Notes under the pieces: model-generated
Told to the model about the DNA's origin: nothing
Databases searched by the model: none
The model's input: only the letters and a program-made list of their open reading frames with translations
Shown here: one piece after another, positions 1 through 50,601 of the stretch
Layout: each line of letters begins with the position of its first letter
Position numbering within the stretch: the stretch's first letter is position 1
Program-made: the position numbers and the translations under genes
Assembly (NCBI RefSeq): GCF_030464345.1
Contig: NZ_VCYH01000002.1
Location: 62,001 to 126,000, forward strand
DNA from: Methanoculleus frigidifontis
Lineage (GTDB): Archaea > Halobacteriota > Methanomicrobia > Methanomicrobiales > Methanoculleaceae
Length of the DNA: 64,000 bases
Direction: 5' to 3'

Positions 1-3000
1 GCAGTGGCGATCACGCACGCCGATTTCGCGAGTATCCAGATGCTCTACCCGGAACGCGGAACCGCAGGGGAACTCCGGCTCCTGGGCCACCGCGGGTTTG
101 CCGAGGAGGCCGCGCGGATCTGGGAGTGGGTGCATCCGGATTCCGAGAGCGCCTGCGGAATCGCTTTCCGCACCAGGCAACGGGTCATGATCCCGGATAT
201 CCGGCAATGCGAATTCATGACCGACAGCCCGGATCTGAAGGCCTACCGTGAGACAGGCATCCGGGCCGTTCAGACCACCCCGCTGGTATCCCGATCCGGC
301 ACGCTCCTTGGGATGCTCTCCACGCACTGGCGCCAGCCGCACGAGCCCACCGAGACCGAACTGCGGTCCTTCGATCTGCTGGCGCGGCAGGCCGCCGATC
401 TCATCTACCGCAACCAGTCAGAAAAAACGCTGCGCGAGAGCGAAGAGCGCCTTGTGTTAGCGAAAGACGCATCCCGGCTTGGCATTTACGATTACAATCT
501 CCGAACCGGCGCCCTCCAGTGGGATGCGCGGGTGCGAGAACTCTGGGGCGTCGGACGGGATGAGCCCATCACCTATGAAACGTTCCAGGCCGGCATTCAC
601 CCGGACGACTGTGAAGCAGTCCAACAGGCAACGGACATAGCACTCGATCCGGCCGGAGAAGGGAAGTATTTCACAGAATACCGCGTGATCAGTCGTGCAG
701 ACGGCAGTACCCGTTGGGTTGCATCAACGGGACAGGCCTTCTTCGAGAGAGGCCGGGCGATCCGGCTCGTCGGCACCGTTCAGGACATCACAGAACGCAA
801 GCAGGCGGAAGAAGCGCTCGCCAGATCCGAGGCAGAACAACGGCTCATTCTCGACTCGTCCGTCGAGCAGTTTGCATATTTTGATACCGACTTGCGGGTG
901 CTCTGGTGCAACCAGGCAATGGCCGATGCAATCGGCCAACCGGAAGAGGGTATCAGAGGAGAGTACTGCTACCGCCTCCGGCACCAGCGGAGCGAACCCT
1001 GCGAAGGCTGTCCGGTGATGAAGGCGCTCGCGACCGGAGAAGCACAGGAAACCGAGTTTGAAGCGCCCGATGGTCGGATCTGGTTCTGCAGGGGACAACC
1101 TATCCTGGACGAAACGGGAAACGTCGTTAACCTGATAGAGTTCTGCTACGACATCACAAAACGCAAGCAGACAGAAGAGACGCTCCTCAAGAGCGAAGAA
1201 AAATTCCGCACCATCGCCGCTTTCACCTACGACTGGGAGTACTGGCTCGGGCCGGACGGCAGGTACCTCTATGTCTCGCCCTCGTGCGAACGGATCACCG
1301 GCTACCGGGCAGACGAGTTCCTGGAAGATCCCGGCCTGATGATGCGCATTACTCACCCCGACGACCGCGCGCTTGTTGCCGACCATCTGGAACGGGGCGT
1401 GCCGGACAGCAACGACTGCGCGATCGATTTTCGCATCATCACCCGCAGCGGCGAGGTGCGCTGGATCGGACACTCCTGCCGGCCGGTCTACAACGCTGCA
1501 GGGCAGTACATCGGCGTGCGCGGGAGCAACCGCGACATATCCAAACGAAAACAGATGGAGGATGCCCTCAGGGAAGCGGGCGCCTACACCCGCAGCCTCA
1601 TCGAGGCGAGCCTCGACCCGCTCGTCACCATCAGCCCCGACGGGCGGATAACCGACGTGAACGCAGCCACCGAGGCCGTTACCGGCTATTCCCGCGACGT
1701 GCTGATCGGGACCGATTTCTCCGATTACTTCACCGATCCTGCGATGGCACGCGCCGGATACCAACAGGTCTTCAGGGACGGCCAGGTCCGGAACTACCCA
1801 CTTGAGATCCGGCACCGGGATGGGACAATCACCCCGGTGATCTACACCGCCACCGTCTACCGGGACGAAGACGGGAACGTTGCCGGCGTCTTTGCAGCGG
1901 CACGGGACATCAGCGAGCAGAAACGCGCAGACAACGAAAAAACCATCCTGACCCGGATCATCGACGCAGCACCGTGCTCCATCACCGTGAAGGATCTGGA
2001 GGGCAGGTTCCTGTACGCCAACCAGCGGACATACGATCTGCACGGCTACTCCCCGGAGGAGTTCTTCGCCATCAGCCTGCACGAACTTAGCGTCCCGGAA
2101 TCCGCCGAGCTCATCGAGCTTCGGACGCAGCAGATCTGCGAGACCGGCGAAGCAGTCTTCGAGGTCGCACACCGGCACAAGGACGGGACTGCGTTCCCGC
2201 TCCGTGTGCACGCCCAGACGGTCACCTGGGACGATAAACCTGCAATTCTGAGCCTGGCAGAGGACATCACTGAAGAGAAAAAGGCGGAAGCGGCGCTGCA
2301 GGAGAGCGAAGAAAGGCTCCGGCGGGCAGTGAAGAGTGCACGTGAGTTCCTCTTCAGAATTGAGTTCACCCCGGAACCGGCGTTCACCTACATCGACCCG
2401 GAAGTTGCGACGATCACAGGAATCAGTGCCGAAGAGTTTGCTGCGGATCCCTCCATCGCGTTTCGGCTGATCCACCCCGAGGACAGGGCTGCATTCGATA
2501 AAATGAGACGGGGTGAAACCAACCCCTCCAGACCTCTCACTCTCCGCTGGACCCGGACCGACGGACAGATGGTCTGGATCGAGCACTACCATACTCCATT
2601 CTATGACGCAGAGGGAAATCTCCGTGCGGTTGAAGCGATCGTCCGTGATGTTACACTCCAGAAACAGGCCGAAGAAGCACTCCGGCAGCGCACCGAAGAG
2701 CTTGAAAGACTCAATCAGCAACTCGAGGAGAGCAGGGAGCAGTACCGCTACCTCATCGAGCATGCTCCCGACATGATCGCCCTGCACGACGGAGACCGGT
2801 ATCACTACATCAACCCTGCAGGGCTGCGCCTCCTGCGTGCGCAAAATCCCGACGAGATCGTCGGAAAGTCCGTCATGACATTCCTTCACCCGGACTTCCG
2901 CAAGATGGTAAAGACCCGTAGCGACCAGATCGAGAGTATGGCCTCCGACGTTCCGCGGGTCGAAGAAAAGCTGATCGCCCTCGACGGGTCGATCGTCGAC

Positions 3001-3459
3001 GTCGAGGTTACAGCCCACCCCATGGAAAGCCAGGGAAAGCGATTGATTCAGGTCATCGCACGGGACATCACCGACCGCAAAAAAGCCGAAGAAGCGCTGC
3101 GCGAGAGTGAGGAGCGGTTCAGGTATATTGCCGAGCACAGCCCCGATATTCTCTACACCCTGGATCGCGAGGGGCGGATCACCTACGTATCACCGTCCAT
3201 CGAGCGGATCACCGGGCATACCCCGACGGAACTGATCGGAAAGAACTACATGGACTACATCCTCGAATCCGACATCCCAAAAGCATACCGGGCGCGGAAG
3301 AGAGCACTCGAGGGTGAAGAACTGCTCCAGCTTCAGCTGAACCTTGTCGGAAAGAACGGCGAGACCGTGCCGCTGGAATGCATCGCATCGCCGGCATACA
3401 AAAACGCCATTGTTATCGGCACCCTGGGGCTAGCCCGCAAAATCACGCCCGGAGAGTGA
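1..3459 (+). CDS. GAF/multi-PAS sensor protein, 5' end outside window
   Basis: The gene is open at the left edge, so its true start is not visible. The visible 1151 residues begin inside a GAF domain (about residues 1-135) and continue as eight consecutive PAS/PAC units (roughly 145-270, 275-390, 395-515, 520-645, 650-765, 770-895, 915-1030, 1035-1150). The units are joined by the short helical linkers (K/Q-AEEAL type) usual for archaeal sensor kinases. Unlike a typical histidine kinase it stops right after the last PAS unit: there is no HisKA H-box, no HATPase N/G boxes and no receiver or GGDEF domain. The next gene begins 7 bp downstream on the opposite strand, so no output domain can follow. 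It is probably a cytoplasmic ligand, redox or light-sensing scaffold acting on a partner protein; the signal is unknown. The missing N-terminus could hold an output or membrane domain. Confidence 0.85.
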   Translation, partial: AVAITHADFASIQMLYPERGTAGELRLLGHRGFAEEAARIWEWVHPDSESACGIAFRTRQRVMIPDIRQCEFMTDSPDLKAYRETGIRAVQTTPLVSRSGTLLGMLSTHWRQPHEPTETELRSFDLLARQAADLIYRNQSEKTLRESEERLVLAKDASRLGIYDYNLRTGALQWDARVRELWGVGRDEPITYETFQAGIHPDDCEAVQQATDIALDPAGEGKYFTEYRVISRADGSTRWVASTGQAFFERGRAIRLVGTVQDITERKQAEEALARSEAEQRLILDSSVEQFAYFDTDLRVLWCNQAMADAIGQPEEGIRGEYCYRLRHQRSEPCEGCPVMKALATGEAQETEFEAPDGRIWFCRGQPILDETGNVVNLIEFCYDITKRKQTEETLLKSEEKFRTIAAFTYDWEYWLGPDGRYLYVSPSCERITGYRADEFLEDPGLMMRITHPDDRALVADHLERGVPDSNDCAIDFRIITRSGEVRWIGHSCRPVYNAAGQYIGVRGSNRDISKRKQMEDALREAGAYTRSLIEASLDPLVTISPDGRITDVNAATEAVTGYSRDVLIGTDFSDYFTDPAMARAGYQQVFRDGQVRNYPLEIRHRDGTITPVIYTATVYRDEDGNVAGVFAAARDISEQKRADNEKTILTRIIDAAPCSITVKDLEGRFLYANQRTYDLHGYSPEEFFAISLHELSVPESAELIELRTQQICETGEAVFEVAHRHKDGTAFPLRVHAQTVTWDDKPAILSLAEDITEEKKAEAALQESEERLRRAVKSAREFLFRIEFTPEPAFTYIDPEVATITGISAEEFAADPSIAFRLIHPEDRAAFDKMRRGETNPSRPLTLRWTRTDGQMVWIEHYHTPFYDAEGNLRAVEAIVRDVTLQKQAEEALRQRTEELERLNQQLEESREQYRYLIEHAPDMIALHDGDRYHYINPAGLRLLRAQNPDEIVGKSVMTFLHPDFRKMVKTRSDQIESMASDVPRVEEKLIALDGSIVDVEVTAHPMESQGKRLIQVIARDITDRKKAEEALRESEERFRYIAEHSPDILYTLDREGRITYVSPSIERITGHTPTELIGKNYMDYILESDIPKAYRARKRALEGEELLQLQLNLVGKNGETVPLECIASPAYKNAIVIGTLGLARKITPGE

Positions 3460-3466
3460 TCGAGTC

Positions 3467-3853
3467 TCACTGCTGAAAGTACTCCGTCGGAAACCGTACA
3501 ACCCCGACTGCGATCAGCGCCCCGATGACCGCCGTATACAGAATGGAGATGAGGAGATCTTTCAGAAAATCCTTTCGGGTATACTCCTTCTCCTCACTGG
3601 TTGCAATATCGACGACGCCCTTGTGCAGGAGGATGAACCCGGCGATATTCGTGATCCAGTAGCCGACGATCATAGCGGGGAGAAAAAGATCCTCTGAGAC
3701 CATCCCGAACGGGATGGCAAATACATAGGCAAGCGGGATGTTGACGAAGAGATCGTTCCACCACGACAGGGGTGAGAGAATATAGCCTATCGTTGCCAGA
3801 ATCCCGCCCCGCACCTTTCGTTTGGGGGATTTGACAAGCGATTTGAGATCCAT
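3467..3853 (-). CDS. Small integral membrane protein, unknown function
   Basis: This 128-residue protein was not assigned to a family. It has a basic, cytoplasmic-looking N-terminus (residues 1-16), then hydrophobic segments at about 17-35, 38-55, 57-78 and 95-118, suggesting three or four membrane helices, with a charged loop rich in Glu and Lys at 83-95. The ATG at 3853 is the only good start. It lies tail-to-tail with the PAS protein (7-bp gap) and downstream of the UPF0173 hydrolase gene on the same strand, 119 bp away, so it may be expressed separately. Its function cannot be read from the sequence. Confidence 0.6.
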   Translation of the reverse strand: MDLKSLVKSPKRKVRGGILATIGYILSPLSWWNDLFVNIPLAYVFAIPFGMVSEDLFLPAMIVGYWITNIAGFILLHKGVVDIATSEEKEYTRKDFLKDLLISILYTAVIGALIAVGVVRFPTEYFQQ

Positions 3854-3972
3854 GCACGATCATCCCGCATCCCGATGGAGGATGAAGCCGGTATCGCAGG
3901 GAGGAAACAAAAAGATGATCCGGGATCCGCCCGGAACTGCGAGATCCGCCCAGGTCGCCGGGGCGGGGCGGA

Positions 3973-4647
3973 TTACCTGCCAAGCTGTGCCGGATCGAGG
4001 TCGAGAGACGCCCCCGGATCGAGAACCTCCACCCGGATCGATGTCGTCCGTTCGATAGCATGCTTAAACGGATCAAGGTCCTGCTCGATGTACGGGAATG
4101 TATCGTAATGGATCGGAACCACCACCTTCGCGCCGATGTACTGCGCCGCGAGCATCGCCTCCTCAGGCCCCATCGTATAGCGCCCGCCGACAGGCAGCAG
4201 CGCCACGTCGGGCCGGTAGAGATCGCGGATCAGCTGCATGTCCGAGAAGAGCCCGGTATCGCCGGCATGGTAGACCCGTATGCCGTCCATCCCGATGACG
4301 TAGCCTGCAGCGACGCCGCCGTAGAAGCCCGGCTCTTCATCCTCGAGCCATGATGAATGGAGTGCCGGCGTCATGGTGAACCGGATGCCGTCCACGATGA
4401 TGGTACCGCCGATGTTCATCGGCTCTGCCGGGATGTCATGCCGGGCAAGGTACTTCGCAATCTCATTTATGGCGACGGTCTTTACCCCAAGCTGCACCGT
4501 CACCCCCAGGTGGTCGGCGTGTGCGTGGGTAACGGCGACGATATCGGGCTGCACGGCGAGGTCTCCCGACGGCACGAACGGATCGATAAGAATCTTCTTC
4601 GAACCCTCAAGGAGGACACAGGCGTGGCCTAGCCAGGTCAGCTTCAT
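3973..4647 (-). CDS. UPF0173 metallo-beta-lactamase-fold hydrolase
   Basis: The protein has 224 residues, the usual size of the UPF0173/UlaG-like metal-dependent hydrolases. The zinc-binding motif HAHADH lies at residues 41-46, directly after a VAVT strand, and the fold's later metal ligands are visible as the HAGDTG motif near residue 128 and the VPIHYDTFP segment near 176. It starts with the family-typical MKLTWLGHAC. These proteins are cytoplasmic and bind two metals. The physiological substrate of the family is unknown, although relatives hydrolyse phosphodiesters or lactones. No operon partner is evident. Confidence 0.85.
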   Translation of the reverse strand: MKLTWLGHACVLLEGSKKILIDPFVPSGDLAVQPDIVAVTHAHADHLGVTVQLGVKTVAINEIAKYLARHDIPAEPMNIGGTIIVDGIRFTMTPALHSSWLEDEEPGFYGGVAAGYVIGMDGIRVYHAGDTGLFSDMQLIRDLYRPDVALLPVGGRYTMGPEEAMLAAQYIGAKVVVPIHYDTFPYIEQDLDPFKHAIERTTSIRVEVLDPGASLDLDPAQLGR

Positions 4648-5725: not shown

Positions 5726-5729
5726 CGGG

Positions 5730-6019
5730 TAGTGCTCCAGCATATACCTGATACGTTACCTCAGAGCATGCCCTCATGCCGTGAACCGTGGTGGCTATCG
5801 CCATGGGGGTGGGGCTGACTGGGAGGGGTCCCCCCGTATCTCCCCGAAGATCCACAGACATTATCAACCCCACCCGGCCTCCGGCCTCCTCCCCCGCCCC
5901 CAGGGGTGGGGGCAGTCATGGCGATACCCAGGGGAAAGCCGTGCTCCGGGGTGCAATCAATCGGGAACGCCCGGACGCGATCGCAACAAAGGGAGTATCA
6001 GTTGTTTCGCAGGGCTCTA
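5730..6019 (+). repeat. MITE-like dispersed repeat, copy 1 (short form)
   Basis: This non-coding element is about 290 bp and starts with TAGTGCTCC and ends with AGGGCTCTA. It matches copies at 22218-22684 (inverted) and 50131-50589. All three share the left end (GCATATACCTGATACG), a C-rich middle and a right end reading (T)GTTTCGYAGGG. Compared with the other two it lacks roughly 170-190 bp of the left interior. The flanks (CCGATTAGCGGG and CCGAATATTCGG) are only weakly alike, so no clear target duplication remains. Inverted arms with TATCGCCATG inside the element could fold. It fills nearly the whole gap 5726-6076. Open frames across it are not conserved between copies and I do not call them genes. 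Confidence 0.75.
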
Positions 6020-6076
6020 CCGAATATTCGGATGAGCAACCAGGAAAAGAAAATTTGATAGGGAATCCCGAAGCAG

Positions 6077-22064: not shown

Positions 22065-22217
22065 CGGGGTGAGGCATAAAAGGGCGGTTGCCGGGCCGCA
22101 ACGACCGGACCAAACGGGGACAGGTAAACCCGCTTATCCGCCCATATGGTGCCGGAGCGATCTGCCCGCCTCACGCATCAGCAGGACGATGAAGATGAAC
22201 GTCAGAACAATCAGCGG

Positions 22218-22684
22218 TAGTGCCCTACGAAACAACTGATACTCCCTTTGTTGCGATCGCGTCCGGGTGTTCCCGATTGATTGCACCCCGGGGGCACGGC
22301 TTCCCCCTGGGTATCGCCATGACTGCCCCCGCCCCTGGGCCGGGGGAGGAGGCCGGAGGCCGGGCGGAGTGGGGTTGACGATGTCTGGGGATCTTCGCAG
22401 GAGACAGGGGAGGAGAAAACCCCTCGCCGTCAGCCCCACCCGGGGGCGGTTAGCCACCACGGTCCACGGCATGGGGAGACGCCCGGGAAAACGGTCGTCC
22501 CCGGCACCAGCCCGGTTCGGCACCGATCTCGTCAGGGAAGCATGACAGCCGGAATAGGGCTTCACCAGAGCCCGATAATGGAAATCTTCTCCCCATGGCA
22601 TTTTTTCATGAGCGCGGGTTGGTGGATAGCGGAATTTCGGTCGGATTCTCTGAGATCACGTATCAGGTATATGCTGGAGCACTA
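22218..22684 (-). repeat. MITE-like dispersed repeat, copy 2 (long form, inverted)
   Basis: This copy is about 467 bp in reverse orientation, from TAGTGCCCT to GGAGCACTA. It matches copy 3 along its length, including the segment missing from copy 1 (the stretches around CCGACCGAAATTCCGC and GGGAGAAGATTTCCA, read on the minus strand). The flanks do not show an obvious direct repeat. Immediately beyond its right edge lies an extra, oppositely oriented terminus. It occupies most of the 925-bp gap 22007-22931. Frames across it are not conserved and I do not call them. Confidence 0.75.
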
Positions 22685-22707
22685 CCCATCGCCGGGTAGT
22701 GCTCCAG
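22674..22707. repeat. Perfect hairpin formed by two opposed element termini
   Basis: CTGGAGCACTACCC at 22674-22687 and GGGTAGTGCTCCAG at 22694-22707 are perfect 14-bp complements separated by 6 nt. The left arm is the terminus of repeat copy 2. The right arm is a second terminus in opposite orientation with no element attached, so this may be the remnant of a nested or excised copy. It could also act as a strong RNA hairpin. Confidence 0.6.
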
Positions 22708-22931
22708 CGGACTCCTTGTGCAGGTGATTGAGAGGTCGTGCCGCCGCAGCCCCATCTCCCCGATACCGGGAACAAGAGCGGCAATCGCATGGAGGAGGGG
22801 GCACGCTCCCCGCCCGCCCTCACCCCGGATCCGGTATTTGAGAATGCCAAAAACCATCCAGGAACTGCACCGGCATCACTATCCATCAGGTAAAAGCATA
22901 TTTGACGGATAACCTCAGAGGTACATACGAG

Positions 22932-23294
22932 ATGCCGGAGATACCCGATTTTACGTGGAAACAGTGTCTGATCGTGAGAAACGACATCAAGATGAGTTGC
23001 GGCAAGAAGTGCGCCCAGATTGCCCACGCAGCCGTCGGAGCCTATGAGAAAGCCGATAAGATCGCGAAGAAGCACTGGCTCGACGAAGGGCAGAAGAAAG
23101 TGGTGCTGAAAGCGATCTCTGAGCGGCAACTCTTCGAACTCAAGACGATAGCAGAACAGGCCGGCATTCCGGCATCGATCATCCAGGACGCCGGGCTGAC
23201 CGAGATCCCCCCCGGCACGGTCACCGCGCTCGGGCTTGGGCCTGCCAGAAGCGAGGCGCTCGACCGGATAACCAGCGATCTCTCACTCCTATGA
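22932..23294 (+). CDS. pth2: Peptidyl-tRNA hydrolase, archaeal/eukaryal type
   Basis: Pth2 releases tRNA from peptidyl-tRNA dropped by ribosomes. The frame opens at a TTG (22902), but the ATG at 22932 follows an AGAGGT ribosome-binding site and gives the typical size of 120 residues. Family features are KQCLIVRNDIKMSCGKKCAQIAHA, with the conserved K, GK and H residues of the active site, and the C-terminal TEIPPGTVTALGLGP block. Its last 4 bp overlap truD, so the two RNA genes form an operon. Confidence 0.93.
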   Translation: MPEIPDFTWKQCLIVRNDIKMSCGKKCAQIAHAAVGAYEKADKIAKKHWLDEGQKKVVLKAISERQLFELKTIAEQAGIPASIIQDAGLTEIPPGTVTALGLGPARSEALDRITSDLSLL

Positions 23295-35771: not shown

Positions 35772-35816
35772 CATTTAAGTAGCTTGACAGAATATAGCCG
35801 CATATCCATAAGGAGA
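35772..35816 (+). promoter_or_regulatory. fdhA1 promoter and ribosome-binding site
   Basis: A TATA-like ATTTAAGTA at 35773-35781 and an AGGAGA ribosome-binding site at 35811-35816 precede the ATG at 35826. A stronger-looking TATA (ATTAAATATACC, about 35635-35646) lies 180 bp upstream and could give a long leader. The fdhA2/fdhA3 element ACCCACCGATATTC is absent. The rest of 35489-35825 has no recognisable gene. Confidence 0.45.
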
Positions 35817-35825
35817 ATCAAAAGT

Positions 35826-37892
35826 ATGACCATGAAGTATGTGGCCACCACATGTCCGTACTGCGGAACCGGCTGTAGCTTCAATCTTGTCGTCCAGAAC
35901 GGCAAGGTTATCGGAACAGCACCCTACCAGCGTTCGCCCGTCAATGAGGGGAAAGTGTGCCCGAAGGGCACCTACGCCCACGAATTCGTGAACCGCGAAG
36001 ACCGCCTCACAAAGCCGCTCATCAAGAAGAACGGCACATTTGAGGAAGCGACCTGGGACGAGGCATACGACCTGATCGCCGAGAAGTTCAAGTCGTATAA
36101 GCCCGACGAGTGCGCAGTGCTCTCATCCGCCCGTACCTCCAACGAGGAGAACTACGCGCTGATGAAGTTCGCCCGCGGCGCACTCAAAACCCGTCACATC
36201 GACCACTGTGCCCGTCTCTGCCACGCGTCCACCGTCGCCGGCCTTGCGGCATCCTTCGGCTCAGGTGCGATGACCAACTCCATCGGCGACATCGCCGAGT
36301 CCAAGTGCCTCTTCATCCTCGGCAGCAACACATTCGAGCAGCACCCCCTGATCGGGCGCAGGGTTGCCCAGGCGAAGAAGGCCGGCGCCAAGATCATCTA
36401 CGCCGACCCGCGCTACACCGCAACCGGCAAGCAGGCCGACCTCTACATGCAGTTCGTCTCCGGCAGCGACGTCGCGATTCTCAACGGCCTGATGCAGGAG
36501 ATCATCAAGAACGGCTGGGAGGATACGGAGTTCCTCAAGAACCGTGTTAAGGGATACGAGGAGCTCAAGGCGACGGTCATGAAGGAGGACTACAGCCTCG
36601 AGAACGTCTCCAAGATCTCCGGCATCCCGGTCGAGCAGCTCAAGACCGCAGCAGAGTGGATCGGCACCGCCGAGTCGGCTGCGATCCTCTACTCGATGGG
36701 CATCACCCAGCACACCGTCGGTGTCGACAACGTCAAGTCGATCGCCAACCTCCAGATGCTCACCGGCAACCTGGGCAGGCCCGGCACCGGTGTTAACGCA
36801 CTCCGTGGCCAGAACAACGTCCAGGGCGCCTGCGACATGGGTGCGCTCCCGGTCGTCTTCACCGGCTACCAGAAGGTCATCGACGAAGCCGCCCACAAGA
36901 AGTTCGCCGACGCATGGGGCTTCCCCGACGGCATCAGCGAGCCCAAGAACGGCTACGAGGTCACCGTCATGATGGACGTCCTCACCGACAACCCCGGTGA
37001 GCTGAAGTGCATGTACATCATGGGCGAAAACCCCATGCTCTCCGATCCGGACCTCACCCACGTCGAGCACGCCATCAAGAACCTCGAGTTCCTGGTCGTG
37101 CAGGACATCTTCATGACCGAGACCGCAGAGCTCGCCGACGTCGTCCTCCCCGCAGCCTGCTACGCAGAGAAGGACGGCACGCAGACCAGCACCGAGCGGC
37201 GTGTCCAGATGTGGCGCAAAGCGCAGGACCCCCCCGGCGAGGCAAAAGACGACTGGAAGATCATCGCAGAGATCGCCGCCAAGATGGGCTACGCAGACCA
37301 GTTCGCGTGGGAGACTGCCGAGGACATCTTCAACGAGATCGCTGCCGTCACCCCGTCTTACCACGGCATGAACTACGAGCGCCTGAACCGCCCCGAGGCG
37401 CTCCACTGGCCCTGCCCCGCAGAGGACCACCCCGGCACGCCGATCCTGCACGGAGCGAAGTTCGCCCACCCCGACGGTTTCGGCGTCATGCACGCGATCG
37501 ACTGGAAACCGCCCGCGGAAGTCCCCGACGCAGAATACCCCTACGTCTTCACCACCGGCCGTATCCTCTTCCACTGGCACACCGGCACCATGACCCGCCG
37601 CTCTGCCACGCTCGACAACGAAGTCCCGACCGGCTGGATCGAGATCAACCCCGAGGACGCCAAGGATCTCGGCATCAAGGACGGCGAAACCGTGAAGGCG
37701 AGCAGCCGCCGCGGATCGATCATCGTCCCCGCACGGGTGACCAAAGACATCATGAAGGGTGTCATGTTCATGCCGTTCCACTTCAAGGAATGCGCGGCAA
37801 ACATCCTGACGAACAACGCACTCGACCCCATCGCCAAGATCCCTGAGTTCAAGGCGTGTGCTGTAAAGGTCGAGAAGATCACGGAGGCCTAA
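35826..37892 (+). CDS. fdhA1: Formate dehydrogenase alpha subunit 1 (F420-type)
   Basis: FdhA is the molybdopterin (Mo or W) catalytic subunit oxidising formate to CO2; electrons pass to FdhB and F420. The 688-residue protein has an N-terminal 4Fe-4S motif (CPYCGTGC and CPKG), the active-site Cys in RLCHASTVAG (so not a selenoprotein), and the C-terminal molybdopterin-dinucleotide-binding domain (TGRILFHWHTGTMTRRS). A frame open to 35784 is shortened to the ATG at 35826 by the AGGAGA ribosome-binding site. From codon 51 on it appears identical to fdhA2, including the DNA, while codons 1-50 differ. Confidence 0.95.
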   Translation: MTMKYVATTCPYCGTGCSFNLVVQNGKVIGTAPYQRSPVNEGKVCPKGTYAHEFVNREDRLTKPLIKKNGTFEEATWDEAYDLIAEKFKSYKPDECAVLSSARTSNEENYALMKFARGALKTRHIDHCARLCHASTVAGLAASFGSGAMTNSIGDIAESKCLFILGSNTFEQHPLIGRRVAQAKKAGAKIIYADPRYTATGKQADLYMQFVSGSDVAILNGLMQEIIKNGWEDTEFLKNRVKGYEELKATVMKEDYSLENVSKISGIPVEQLKTAAEWIGTAESAAILYSMGITQHTVGVDNVKSIANLQMLTGNLGRPGTGVNALRGQNNVQGACDMGALPVVFTGYQKVIDEAAHKKFADAWGFPDGISEPKNGYEVTVMMDVLTDNPGELKCMYIMGENPMLSDPDLTHVEHAIKNLEFLVVQDIFMTETAELADVVLPAACYAEKDGTQTSTERRVQMWRKAQDPPGEAKDDWKIIAEIAAKMGYADQFAWETAEDIFNEIAAVTPSYHGMNYERLNRPEALHWPCPAEDHPGTPILHGAKFAHPDGFGVMHAIDWKPPAEVPDAEYPYVFTTGRILFHWHTGTMTRRSATLDNEVPTGWIEINPEDAKDLGIKDGETVKASSRRGSIIVPARVTKDIMKGVMFMPFHFKECAANILTNNALDPIAKIPEFKACAVKVEKITEA

Positions 37893-37956
37893 CCATGGTA
37901 GCAAAAGGAGACATGGTCTACGCATGGGCAGCCGACGCAGCCGTTCAGGAGAAGGG
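35976..37956 (+). repeat. Near-perfect 1.98-kb direct duplication, copy 1
   Basis: This block covers fdhA1 from codon 51 through the first 62 bp of fdhB1 and matches 39571-41551 with a constant offset of 3595 bp. Not only the FdhA frame but translations of the other frames agree across it, so the DNA itself is essentially identical. It begins after a T/C difference at 35975 and ends at an A/C difference at 37957. The pattern is typical of recent gene conversion. Confidence 0.85.
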
Positions 37957-39049
37957 AGAGTGCGGAGGAGCGATCACTGCTCTGCAGCAGTACGCCCTGA
38001 AATCCGGCATGGTCGACGCCGTCCTTGCCGTCAAGAAGGGACAGGATCTCTACGATGCCGTCCCGACGCTTATCACCGACCCGGTGGATCTGGCGGAGAC
38101 CGCAGGTTCGCTCCACTGCGGAACTCTGCTGCTCTCAAAAGTGGTAAAGAAGTATCTGGAAAGCACCGAGAACACCAGGGTCGGAGTCACCGTGAAAGGC
38201 TGTGATCTCATGGGCCTCATCGAACTCGCAAAGCGTGATGCAGTGGATATGGACCGACTCCTCCTGATCGGCGTCAACTGCGGCGGGTCCGTCAGCCCCG
38301 TCTCGGCCCGGAAGATGATCGCCGAGAAGTTCGGTGTCAACCCCGACGACGTCGTCAAGGAGGAGATCGACAAGGGTCAGTTCATCATCGTCACCAAAGA
38401 CGGTGAGCACAAGGGCATCTCGATCGACGAACTCGAAGAGGAAGGTTACGGCCGCCGCTCCAACTGCCGCAGGTGCCTGTACAAGGTTCCGCGCCAGGCA
38501 GATCTCGCTGCCGGCAACTGGGGTGTCATCGGCGATAAGGCCGGCAAGGCCACCTTCGTCGAGGTCTGCTCCGAGAAGGGTGCAGAGTTGCTGAACAAAG
38601 CAGCGGCTGCAGGAGCACTTGAGACCAGCGCGGCAATCCCGAAAGGCATCGAGATCCGCGGCAAGGTCGAGAACGCCATGCTCAAACTCGGCAACAAGTG
38701 GCGGAAGAACGACTTTAACGCACTCAGTTCCGACCTCTGGGGGACTATCGAAAGGGAGACCGCACGGTGCATAAAATGCTATTCGTGCATTGAAAACTGT
38801 CCGGTCTGCTTCCCGGCCTCAGAAGACCTCAAGGGAAATTCCAGGATGGTCACCACCGGTGAGATTCCGCCAAACCCGATGTTCCATCTCAGGCGGTTCG
38901 CCCACATCTCCGACTCCTGTGTCAACTGCGGTCAGTGCGAAGAACTCTGCCCGATGGACATCCCGCTGGCACTCTTCTCGCACGCCATCAGATCCGAGGG
39001 AGACGCCGCTTTCCAGCCAAAACTGGGCAGAGCGCCCTACAAAAACTAA
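37895..39049 (+). CDS. fdhB1: Formate dehydrogenase beta subunit 1, divergent (F420-reducing)
   Basis: FdhB carries FAD and iron-sulfur clusters and reduces F420. At 384 residues it is 28 shorter than FdhB2. The FrhB/FdhB N- and C-terminal domains and two ferredoxin motifs (CIKCYSCIENCP and CVNCGQCEELCP) are present. Differences from FdhB2 and FdhB3 are striking: Cys206 of the DLACGNWG motif is Ala here, the CYCxxC pair after the first ferredoxin motif is replaced by CFPASEDL, and the tail ending in QIFNIFS is missing. It follows fdhA1 by 2 bp with a CGGAGG ribosome-binding site. A central patch (about 38290-38445) is nearly identical to fdhB2. Confidence 0.9.
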   Translation: MVAKGDMVYAWAADAAVQEKGECGGAITALQQYALKSGMVDAVLAVKKGQDLYDAVPTLITDPVDLAETAGSLHCGTLLLSKVVKKYLESTENTRVGVTVKGCDLMGLIELAKRDAVDMDRLLLIGVNCGGSVSPVSARKMIAEKFGVNPDDVVKEEIDKGQFIIVTKDGEHKGISIDELEEEGYGRRSNCRRCLYKVPRQADLAAGNWGVIGDKAGKATFVEVCSEKGAELLNKAAAAGALETSAAIPKGIEIRGKVENAMLKLGNKWRKNDFNALSSDLWGTIERETARCIKCYSCIENCPVCFPASEDLKGNSRMVTTGEIPPNPMFHLRRFAHISDSCVNCGQCEELCPMDIPLALFSHAIRSEGDAAFQPKLGRAPYKN

Positions 39050-39051
39050 TC

Positions 39052-39057
39052 TTTTTT
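39052..39057 (+). terminator. T-tract terminator after fdhB1
   Basis: Six T residues start 3 bp after the fdhB1 stop and fit archaeal oligo-T termination. Together with a separate promoter before fdhA2 this makes fdhA1B1 its own transcription unit. Confidence 0.45.
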
Positions 39058-39332
39058 GATTATCCGCCCTGCCGACGACGCACCTCCTGCAGGCCGCCTG
39101 TTCCCCACCTGTGTGGCGACGATCACCACAATCCATCGTATTCCGGTCACCATTACCGCAGATATATTCGCAGAAAACAGATCGATGCGCCCATTCGTAC
39201 CTGCCATACAGCAGCACCGGGACGGGAAGATGCAGTGCGCATGAGCATATAGACAGCGATAATGACATTAAATGATAAAAGGACATCAATTTGATGTTTT
39301 CAATCTGCTCCAGGAAAATGACCCCACCTAAA

Positions 39333-39384
39333 ACCCACCGATATTCCCCAAAACCGCGACAGTTAATCAGTACAATTAAATATA
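39333..39384 (+). promoter_or_regulatory. fdhA2 promoter with element shared with fdhA3
   Basis: ACCCACCGATATTC at 39333-39346 recurs exactly upstream of fdhA3. It lies 30 bp before a TATA box (TTAAATATA, 39376-39384), with a CAGTTAATCAGTA stretch between. The ATG at 39421 follows about 37 bp after the TATA box, so the leader is short. The position suits an activator site. The rest of the 371-bp gap 39050-39420 is otherwise featureless. Confidence 0.55.
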
Positions 39385-39420
39385 CCTAACTTCGAAAATC
39401 TATGTATCCGAGGTTTTACC

Positions 39421-41487
39421 ATGGAACTCAAGTACGTACAGACCACGTGCCCCTACTGCGGCACGGGATGCAGCTTCAACCTCGTGGTGAAGGACGGCAA
39501 GGTTGCCGGTGTGCAGCCCTACCAGCGTTCACCCGTTAACGAGGGAAGAGTATGTCCGAAGGGCACCTATGCCCACGAATTCGTGAACCGCGAAGACCGC
39601 CTCACAAAGCCGCTCATCAAGAAGAACGGCACATTTGAGGAAGCGACCTGGGACGAGGCATACGACCTGATCGCCGAGAAGTTCAAGTCGTATAAGCCCG
39701 ACGAGTGCGCAGTGCTCTCATCCGCCCGTACCTCCAACGAGGAGAACTACGCGCTGATGAAGTTCGCCCGCGGCGCACTCAAAACCCGTCACATCGACCA
39801 CTGTGCCCGTCTCTGCCACGCGTCCACCGTCGCCGGCCTTGCGGCATCCTTCGGCTCAGGTGCGATGACCAACTCCATCGGCGACATCGCCGAGTCCAAG
39901 TGCCTCTTCATCCTCGGCAGCAACACATTCGAGCAGCACCCCCTGATCGGGCGCAGGGTTGCCCAGGCGAAGAAGGCCGGCGCCAAGATCATCTACGCCG
40001 ACCCGCGCTACACCGCAACCGGCAAGCAGGCCGACCTCTACATGCAGTTCGTCTCCGGCAGCGACGTCGCGATTCTCAACGGCCTGATGCAGGAGATCAT
40101 CAAGAACGGCTGGGAGGATACGGAGTTCCTCAAGAACCGTGTTAAGGGATACGAGGAGCTCAAGGCGACGGTCATGAAGGAGGACTACAGCCTCGAGAAC
40201 GTCTCCAAGATCTCCGGCATCCCGGTCGAGCAGCTCAAGACCGCAGCAGAGTGGATCGGCACCGCCGAGTCGGCTGCGATCCTCTACTCGATGGGCATCA
40301 CCCAGCACACCGTCGGTGTCGACAACGTCAAGTCGATCGCCAACCTCCAGATGCTCACCGGCAACCTGGGCAGGCCCGGCACCGGTGTTAACGCACTCCG
40401 TGGCCAGAACAACGTCCAGGGCGCCTGCGACATGGGTGCGCTCCCGGTCGTCTTCACCGGCTACCAGAAGGTCATCGACGAAGCCGCCCACAAGAAGTTC
40501 GCCGACGCATGGGGCTTCCCCGACGGCATCAGCGAGCCCAAGAACGGCTACGAGGTCACCGTCATGATGGACGTCCTCACCGACAACCCCGGTGAGCTGA
40601 AGTGCATGTACATCATGGGCGAAAACCCCATGCTCTCCGATCCGGACCTCACCCACGTCGAGCACGCCATCAAGAACCTCGAGTTCCTGGTCGTGCAGGA
40701 CATCTTCATGACCGAGACCGCAGAGCTCGCCGACGTCGTCCTCCCCGCAGCCTGCTACGCAGAGAAGGACGGCACGCAGACCAGCACCGAGCGGCGTGTC
40801 CAGATGTGGCGCAAAGCGCAGGACCCCCCCGGCGAGGCAAAAGACGACTGGAAGATCATCGCAGAGATCGCCGCCAAGATGGGCTACGCAGACCAGTTCG
40901 CGTGGGAGACTGCCGAGGACATCTTCAACGAGATCGCTGCCGTCACCCCGTCTTACCACGGCATGAACTACGAGCGCCTGAACCGCCCCGAGGCGCTCCA
41001 CTGGCCCTGCCCCGCAGAGGACCACCCCGGCACGCCGATCCTGCACGGAGCGAAGTTCGCCCACCCCGACGGTTTCGGCGTCATGCACGCGATCGACTGG
41101 AAACCGCCCGCGGAAGTCCCCGACGCAGAATACCCCTACGTCTTCACCACCGGCCGTATCCTCTTCCACTGGCACACCGGCACCATGACCCGCCGCTCTG
41201 CCACGCTCGACAACGAAGTCCCGACCGGCTGGATCGAGATCAACCCCGAGGACGCCAAGGATCTCGGCATCAAGGACGGCGAAACCGTGAAGGCGAGCAG
41301 CCGCCGCGGATCGATCATCGTCCCCGCACGGGTGACCAAAGACATCATGAAGGGTGTCATGTTCATGCCGTTCCACTTCAAGGAATGCGCGGCAAACATC
41401 CTGACGAACAACGCACTCGACCCCATCGCCAAGATCCCTGAGTTCAAGGCGTGTGCTGTAAAGGTCGAGAAGATCACGGAGGCCTAA
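39421..41487 (+). CDS. fdhA2: Formate dehydrogenase alpha subunit 2 (F420-type)
   Basis: This 688-residue catalytic subunit differs from FdhA1 only within the first 50 residues (for example MELKYVQTT against MTMKYVATT, and KDGKVAGVQ against QNGKVIGTA). It has the same cofactor motifs: N-terminal CPYCGTGC cluster, active-site Cys in LCHASTV, and MGD-binding C-terminal domain. The ATG at 39421 directly follows the promoter, with little leader. It is coupled to fdhB2 by a 2-bp gap. Confidence 0.95.
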   Translation: MELKYVQTTCPYCGTGCSFNLVVKDGKVAGVQPYQRSPVNEGRVCPKGTYAHEFVNREDRLTKPLIKKNGTFEEATWDEAYDLIAEKFKSYKPDECAVLSSARTSNEENYALMKFARGALKTRHIDHCARLCHASTVAGLAASFGSGAMTNSIGDIAESKCLFILGSNTFEQHPLIGRRVAQAKKAGAKIIYADPRYTATGKQADLYMQFVSGSDVAILNGLMQEIIKNGWEDTEFLKNRVKGYEELKATVMKEDYSLENVSKISGIPVEQLKTAAEWIGTAESAAILYSMGITQHTVGVDNVKSIANLQMLTGNLGRPGTGVNALRGQNNVQGACDMGALPVVFTGYQKVIDEAAHKKFADAWGFPDGISEPKNGYEVTVMMDVLTDNPGELKCMYIMGENPMLSDPDLTHVEHAIKNLEFLVVQDIFMTETAELADVVLPAACYAEKDGTQTSTERRVQMWRKAQDPPGEAKDDWKIIAEIAAKMGYADQFAWETAEDIFNEIAAVTPSYHGMNYERLNRPEALHWPCPAEDHPGTPILHGAKFAHPDGFGVMHAIDWKPPAEVPDAEYPYVFTTGRILFHWHTGTMTRRSATLDNEVPTGWIEINPEDAKDLGIKDGETVKASSRRGSIIVPARVTKDIMKGVMFMPFHFKECAANILTNNALDPIAKIPEFKACAVKVEKITEA

Positions 41488-41551
41488 CCATGGTAGCAAA
41501 AGGAGACATGGTCTACGCATGGGCAGCCGACGCAGCCGTTCAGGAGAAGGG
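39571..41551 (+). repeat. Near-perfect 1.98-kb direct duplication, copy 2
   Basis: This is the partner of 35976-37956. It includes the fdhA2 3' part, the intergenic CGGAGGCCTAACC and the first 62 bp of fdhB2. Such a repeat, 3.6 kb apart in direct orientation, could also recombine to delete or amplify one fdhAB pair. Confidence 0.85.
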
Positions 41552-50118: not shown

Positions 50119-50601
50119 CCGGAAAAAGAGTAGTGCTCCAGCATATACCTGATACGTGATCTCAGAGAATCCGACCGAATTACGTTATCCACCAACCCGC
50201 GTTCATGACAAAAATACCATGGGGAGAAGATTTCCATGATCGGGCTTTGGTGAAGTTCTCTTCCGGCTGTCATTCTTCCCTGACGAGATTGGTGCCGGAC
50301 ATGGCCTGTACCTGAGTTTGGCCTTTTTTCTCACGCATGCCCTCATGCCGCGGACCGTGGTGGCTCTCGCCATGGGGGTGGGGCTGACGGGGAGGGGCCT
50401 TGCCCTCCCCTGTCTTACGCAAAGACCCGCACGCCTCATCTCCCCACCTCGCCCGGCCTCCGGCCTCCTCCCCCGCCCCCAGGGCGGGGGCAGTCATGGC
50501 GATACCCAATGGAAAGCCGTGCCCCGGGTTGCAACCTATCGGGGATGCGATCTCAACAAAGGTAGTAGCAGGTGTTTCGTAGGGCACTACCGGAAAAAGA
50601 G
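50119..50601 (+). mobile_element. MITE-like element, copy 3, with 12-bp target-site duplication
   Basis: The element (50131-50589, 459 bp) starts TAGTGCTCC and ends AGGGCACTA, so its termini are inverted repeats matching at 7 of 9 positions. It is flanked on both sides by the perfect 12-bp direct repeat CCGGAAAAAGAG (50119-50130 and 50590-50601). It carries no transposase and is homologous to copies 1 and 2. The perfect flanks argue that this is the youngest insertion. It takes up most of the 686-bp gap 49954-50639; the left 165 bp of that gap show nothing recognisable. Confidence 0.7.

Follow-up and report, generated by a model that had tools for sequence, protein, structure and literature searches.

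The window, a 64,000-nucleotide stretch of Methanoculleus frigidifontis DNA, carries three copies of a family of non-autonomous, transposase-less mobile elements (MITEs). Judging from the sequence of its ends and of elements in related genomes, this family was very probably mobilised in trans by a transposase of the IS1 type. The first-pass annotation had proposed a non-autonomous transposable element, and this reading is correct: the copies are numerous and have inverted ends and target duplications, relatives have sites free of the element, and a reading frame is restored on its removal. The Methanoculleaceae MITE family gains an identified partner type (IS1-like), and its misleading target-duplication length is corrected from 12 to 8 bp. 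It is also an example of a repeat family that lies within a second one and is spread by it.

Copy number and ends of the element family

Further copies were readily found in the genome from which the window is taken (G000; 3.17 Mb, 30 contigs; order Methanomicrobiales, in the family to which Methanoculleus belongs), as the first-pass annotation had suggested might be checked. A BLAST search with copy 3 returned 54 matches, and a 27-bp end pattern occurred 48 times at ≤3 mismatches; the reversed pattern, which served as a control, occurred 0 times. The abundance of the end pattern is far above chance. About 25 copies (in any case >20) run from end to end, most of them 136–470 bp long, a size that fits a MITE, i.e., a non-autonomous DNA transposon. 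No transposase homologue was found within the element.

Alignment of the copies together with their flanks placed the true ends at GGTAGTGC...GCACTACC, imperfect inverted repeats of 27 bp in which the left and right consensus sequences are identical at 20/27 positions. The inverted termini originally described as common to the three copies are real, but these GG...CC ends sit two bases further out on each side.

The three homologous elements are present where they were first placed. Copy 3 (50129–50591, + strand) is a complete 463-bp composite, AGTAGTGCTCC...AGGGCACTACC, in which the left terminal GG is mutated to AG; its 27-bp terminal inverted repeats were located by the end-pattern search at 50129–50155 (+) and 50565–50591 (−). 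Copy 1 (5728–6021, +) is 294 bp long and has an internally deleted left arm. Copy 2 (22216–22686, −) is full length at 471 bp and lies in reverse orientation, head to head with a 15-nt fragment identical to a left end (22694–22708, +).

The family as a whole has the defining features of MITEs: it is short and multi-copy, lacks a transposase gene, has terminal inverted repeats, and has duplicated its target at many independent sites. Relatives have sites that lack the element, and also autonomous elements with ends in common with it. In a routine annotation such copies would appear as spurious short ORFs or as intergenic repeats with no explanation.

Probable IS1-like partner elements in related genomes

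The earlier observation that no matching transposase lies in the window extends to the whole of G000, in which no IS1-type transposase gene was found with either the Pfam model PF03400 or a home-made profile, A2. The proposed search for a transposase flanked by the same termini consequently failed in G000 but succeeded in relatives, where IS1-like elements of this kind exist. PF03400 returned nothing over cut-off from the genome itself or from the order, a result that is unsafe as the sole negative because the partner transposase exceeds the cut-off in hmmscan. Profile A2 was built from two similar sequences and the zinc-ribbon sequence of genome G005, in which a MITE-type end directly precedes the start of the zinc-ribbon gene.

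IS1-like elements matched by A2 were present in 38 of the 231 genomes of the order. The complete elements are about 1.07–1.10 kb in length, with ends GGTAGTGTTCTAACTCATAACTGG in L221 (genome G063, from the same family as the window), GGTAGTGCCCTCCTCTACAACTGAATATGG in L220 and GGTAGTGCCCTGTTAGC in L225, which has 9 equal-score matches in G514. Exact 8-bp duplications (8/8) outside GG-starting ends were found for L218, L225, L226 and L235; L221, the closest intact element, reaches the end of its contig, and its own duplication is unreadable. The L221 transposase is a single open frame, and those of L220 and L225 are split into two, for which either decay or a programmed frameshift may be the cause. 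L221 scored 37.6 bits against a cut-off of 24.1 for the Pfam IS1 DDE model (PF03400) and 97.1 bits against a cut-off of 100, i.e., just under, for the NCBIfam IS1 model NF033558. The zinc-ribbon model NF050000 (IS1_IS1595_Zn) was above cut-off in both L221 and L220, and the InsA-type zinc ribbon PF03811 was detected in the partner below cut-off only. The predicted partner proteins and their elements thus combine a zinc ribbon, an IS1-type DDE domain and GG ends with an 8-bp duplication, features by which the IS1 family is recognised.

Similarity between the MITE and these elements is confined to about 27 bp at the ends. Over this length, 14–20 of 27 positions were identical in elements that came from the protein search alone (L220, L221 and L225), and up to 23/27 in elements found by the end pattern, for which (L185–L188) the similarity is partly selected and the adjacency to transposase coding sequence is not. 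Shuffling gave p values for the end similarity from 0.016 to 5e-5. In G017, G019 and G032, the 3' end of an IS1-like transposase gene directly abuts a MITE-type end (decayed right ends with the C-terminus), and in G005 it is the 5' end of such a gene that does so. Two ends in G032 that together span 1813 bp were considered as one element and rejected, as they are separate remnants. A scan of viral contigs for the end pattern found nothing. IS1 elements found with PF03400 elsewhere in the phylum have ends GGCATTGTTAATTAAACATAG, similar in style and more distant.

In the proposed mechanism, the transposase of a full IS1-like element (~1.1 kb, GGTAGTGYYCY... ends, zinc ribbon and DDE domain) would bind the ends of the MITE and insert its DNA at a staggered cut, and repair would turn the cut into the 8-bp duplication. 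The failure to find an IS1-type transposase gene in G000 counts against this mechanism, under which the enzyme would have acted there in trans and would later have been lost from the lineage, or may be absent from the assembly. A 136-bp ancestral MITE would have gained a second dispersed repeat before the lineage amplified the composite.

Several families make 8-bp duplications, and it is possible in principle, albeit improbable, that the mobiliser belonged to another of them (IS1595, ISL3, IS256, IS6 or the ISM1 group) with ends that are similar by coincidence. IS1595 was the family compared among these candidates: its genes occur in 3 of 40 family genomes, but there is none in G000, and it was rejected as the partner on its ends, which differ (GGTGATTAGGTAACATCG...). 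In four genomes from this family, MITE-type ends lie at the border of IS1-like transposase sequence, which argues against the other candidates as well, and for the IS1-type enzyme.

Insertion sites and lineage-specific expansion

One copy (L011) sits inside an mscS-like gene, and removal of the element together with one 8-bp repeat restored an open frame that encodes an MscS beta-domain (E=4e-18). Gene order around copy 3 is conserved in the sister species G001 as well as in G010 and G011. In these three, the aligned flanks are 101–118 bp apart, as opposed to about 698 bp in G000; 471 bp of this difference is accounted for by the element and its duplication. The empty site predicted at copy 3 was borne out in that the sister species is element-free, but the single target copy expected there is unreadable, as the remaining intergenic sequence in the relatives is too diverged for it to be located. 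At the site of the L012 copy, the alignment with G001 runs through the junction and shows no insert there, and no match to the element was found anywhere in the G001 genome.

In a tree of the copies, for which the bootstrap was not fully converged, 18 of the 19 full-length copies from G000 form one star-like clade (support 98/91). As G001 lacks the element and the copies fall in this single clade, the family has expanded in this lineage, in a burst of at least 18 copies by which one or more genes were split.

These observations also bear on the proposal that the sequence is not mobile but is a structured RNA or an intergenic unit, fixed and passed on by vertical descent. The inner part is present in most Methanoculleaceae genomes and folds somewhat better than its shuffles (z=-2.1), as might be expected of such a unit, but it has no match in Rfam, and the 8-bp duplications, the element-free sites, the insertion in the mscS-like gene and the star-like copy phylogeny contradict the proposal as regards the outer element. 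It is considered very unlikely, and the mobile element remains the preferred reading.

Length of the target-site duplication

Target-site duplications were scored in 23 copies from G000, with the GG...CC ends taken as the element borders. In nine of the 23 the match was exact over 8 bp, and in no copy did it extend further; 13 matched at ≥7 of the 8 positions; random re-pairing of the flanks (2000 rounds) gave a mean of 0.7 copies at this level and a maximum of 6. In 9 of the 23 no duplication was recognisable, among them the window's copies 1 and 2 (4/8 and 2/8 positions, respectively), which is put down to decay or recombination.

The duplication of copy 3 is GGAAAAAG, found at 50121–50128 on the left and 50592–50599 on the right (both +). 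This copy is indeed bracketed by the perfect 12-bp sequence CCGGAAAAAGAG reported initially, and a repeat search extended the flanking direct repeat to 13 nt (ACCGGAAAAAGAG), since the last A of the element equals the base before the left repeat. The 12 matching bases comprise CC, GGAAAAAG and AG. The CC is genomic on the left and the element end on the right, and the AG is the mutated GG element end on the left and genomic on the right. Read in this way, the 12-bp figure is explained by two flank bases per side that equal the element ends (CC right, AG left) by chance.

The duplication that had been described as 12 bp, and as long for archaeal families, is therefore one of 8 bp, as in the IS1-type family with matching ends. 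The 12 (even 13) bases that are identical on the two sides of copy 3 would speak for a novel element whose duplication is unusual in being 12 bp long. This reading is already contradicted by a duplication of exactly 8 bp across the copies, never longer, and by the composition of the extra bases (element ends plus chance flank matches), and it is the least probable of all.

Composite structure and the inner repeat

An element of 135–138 bp, with the same ends and inner sequence, occurs on contig C10 of G000 and in other Methanomicrobiales across the order. In genomes other than G000, the short MITEs L195 and L197 have duplications matching at 8/8 or 7/8 positions, as do the longer forms L194 and L196. 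The ~460-bp form consists of the 136-bp short MITE with an insert of ~328 bp close to its right end, following TTTCCATTATC. By alignment, copy 3 has two arms homologous to the short MITE, one on the left (50129–50243, +; boundary uncertain by ~2 bp) and one on the right (50572–50591, +), with the insert of about 328 bp between them (50244–50571, +).

The middle of the insert is a second repeat, R2 (50325–50532, +, in copy 3), which is free of MITE ends at >15 loci in G000 and is a high-copy dispersed repeat in most Methanoculleaceae genomes. It is made up of two modules, each in part an inverted copy of the other, which alternate in clusters in one relative (L079), an arrangement that resembles paired REP sequences. 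R2 gave no match in Rfam, and its folding was moderately better than that of shuffles, at the z given above. The element may thus be a composite MITE with REP-like cargo, in which an IS1-type transposase spreads a second, also free-standing repeat, i.e., a DNA-transposon vehicle for palindromes in methanogens; this interpretation is tentative and is given slightly less than even weight.

Several copies have more elaborate forms. Versions of 650–700 bp (L015/L022, G000:C10:86726-87378; L008; L064) have duplicated inner segments, and their 8-bp duplications are intact or nearly so. At L036 (G000:C17:2500-5000), a 136-bp MITE, inner-repeat sequence and a second right end are flanked by one 8-bp duplication, GAAAACCG; because this duplication is single, two MITEs may have been mobilised as one unit through their outer ends. 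The copy at L031 (G000:C1:391500-397200, about 1090-4070) contains an insertion of ~3 kb after TTCATGACAAAAA, with the outer duplication CGATCGCG intact. The insertion carries two different IS110-family transposase genes in tandem, and the ~3-kb form was rejected as an autonomous element in favour of a nested insertion.

Comparison with known systems

The archaeal IS1 elements of Methanomicrobiales (L221, L220 and L225) resemble the MITE in their GG-starting inverted ends, which match over about 27 bp, and in their exact 8-bp duplications; as the probable partner they offer a transposase with a zinc ribbon and a DDE_Tnp_IS1 domain. They differ from it in being ~1.07–1.10 kb long and transposase-coding, so that the ends alone are in common. 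Elements of the L221/L220/L225 type may correspond to the ISMhu11 group.

Kamoun et al. described archaeal MITEs that resemble their IS at the ends only, none of which was assigned to IS1 (PMC3852290). The present family is like them in being short, non-coding and multi-copy, with IS similarity confined to the inverted ends. A 136-bp M. hungatei MITE from the same study is set apart by its description, as its 15-bp repeats and 4-bp duplication differ in length from those found here. A search for Methanoculleus MITEs found nothing relevant in the literature covered.

QMITE2 of Coxiella, described with IS1111 (PMC10969869), is an example of MITEs that contain REP-like palindromes or are targeted by way of them. 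It is alike in that MITE ends are combined with a palindromic dispersed repeat, and in the present family one copy has in addition taken up an insertion that carries two genes of the IS110 type. It is unlike the present family in sequence, partner and host, to all of which it is unrelated. The family, although real, represents a fairly ordinary type of mobile element, to which the nested repeat adds some interest over a plain MITE.

Other features of the window

On the minus strand around copy 2 (22134–23129), an open frame at 23129..22656 is followed by a short hydrophobic, C-terminal-like tail at 22217..22134, and copy 2 may have split a gene between the two. Elsewhere in the window, at 35784–41520, two near-identical reading-frame patterns (554, 702/688, 279 and 113 aa; both strands) lie ~3.6 kb apart, which suggests that a gene of about 700 aa has been duplicated in tandem.
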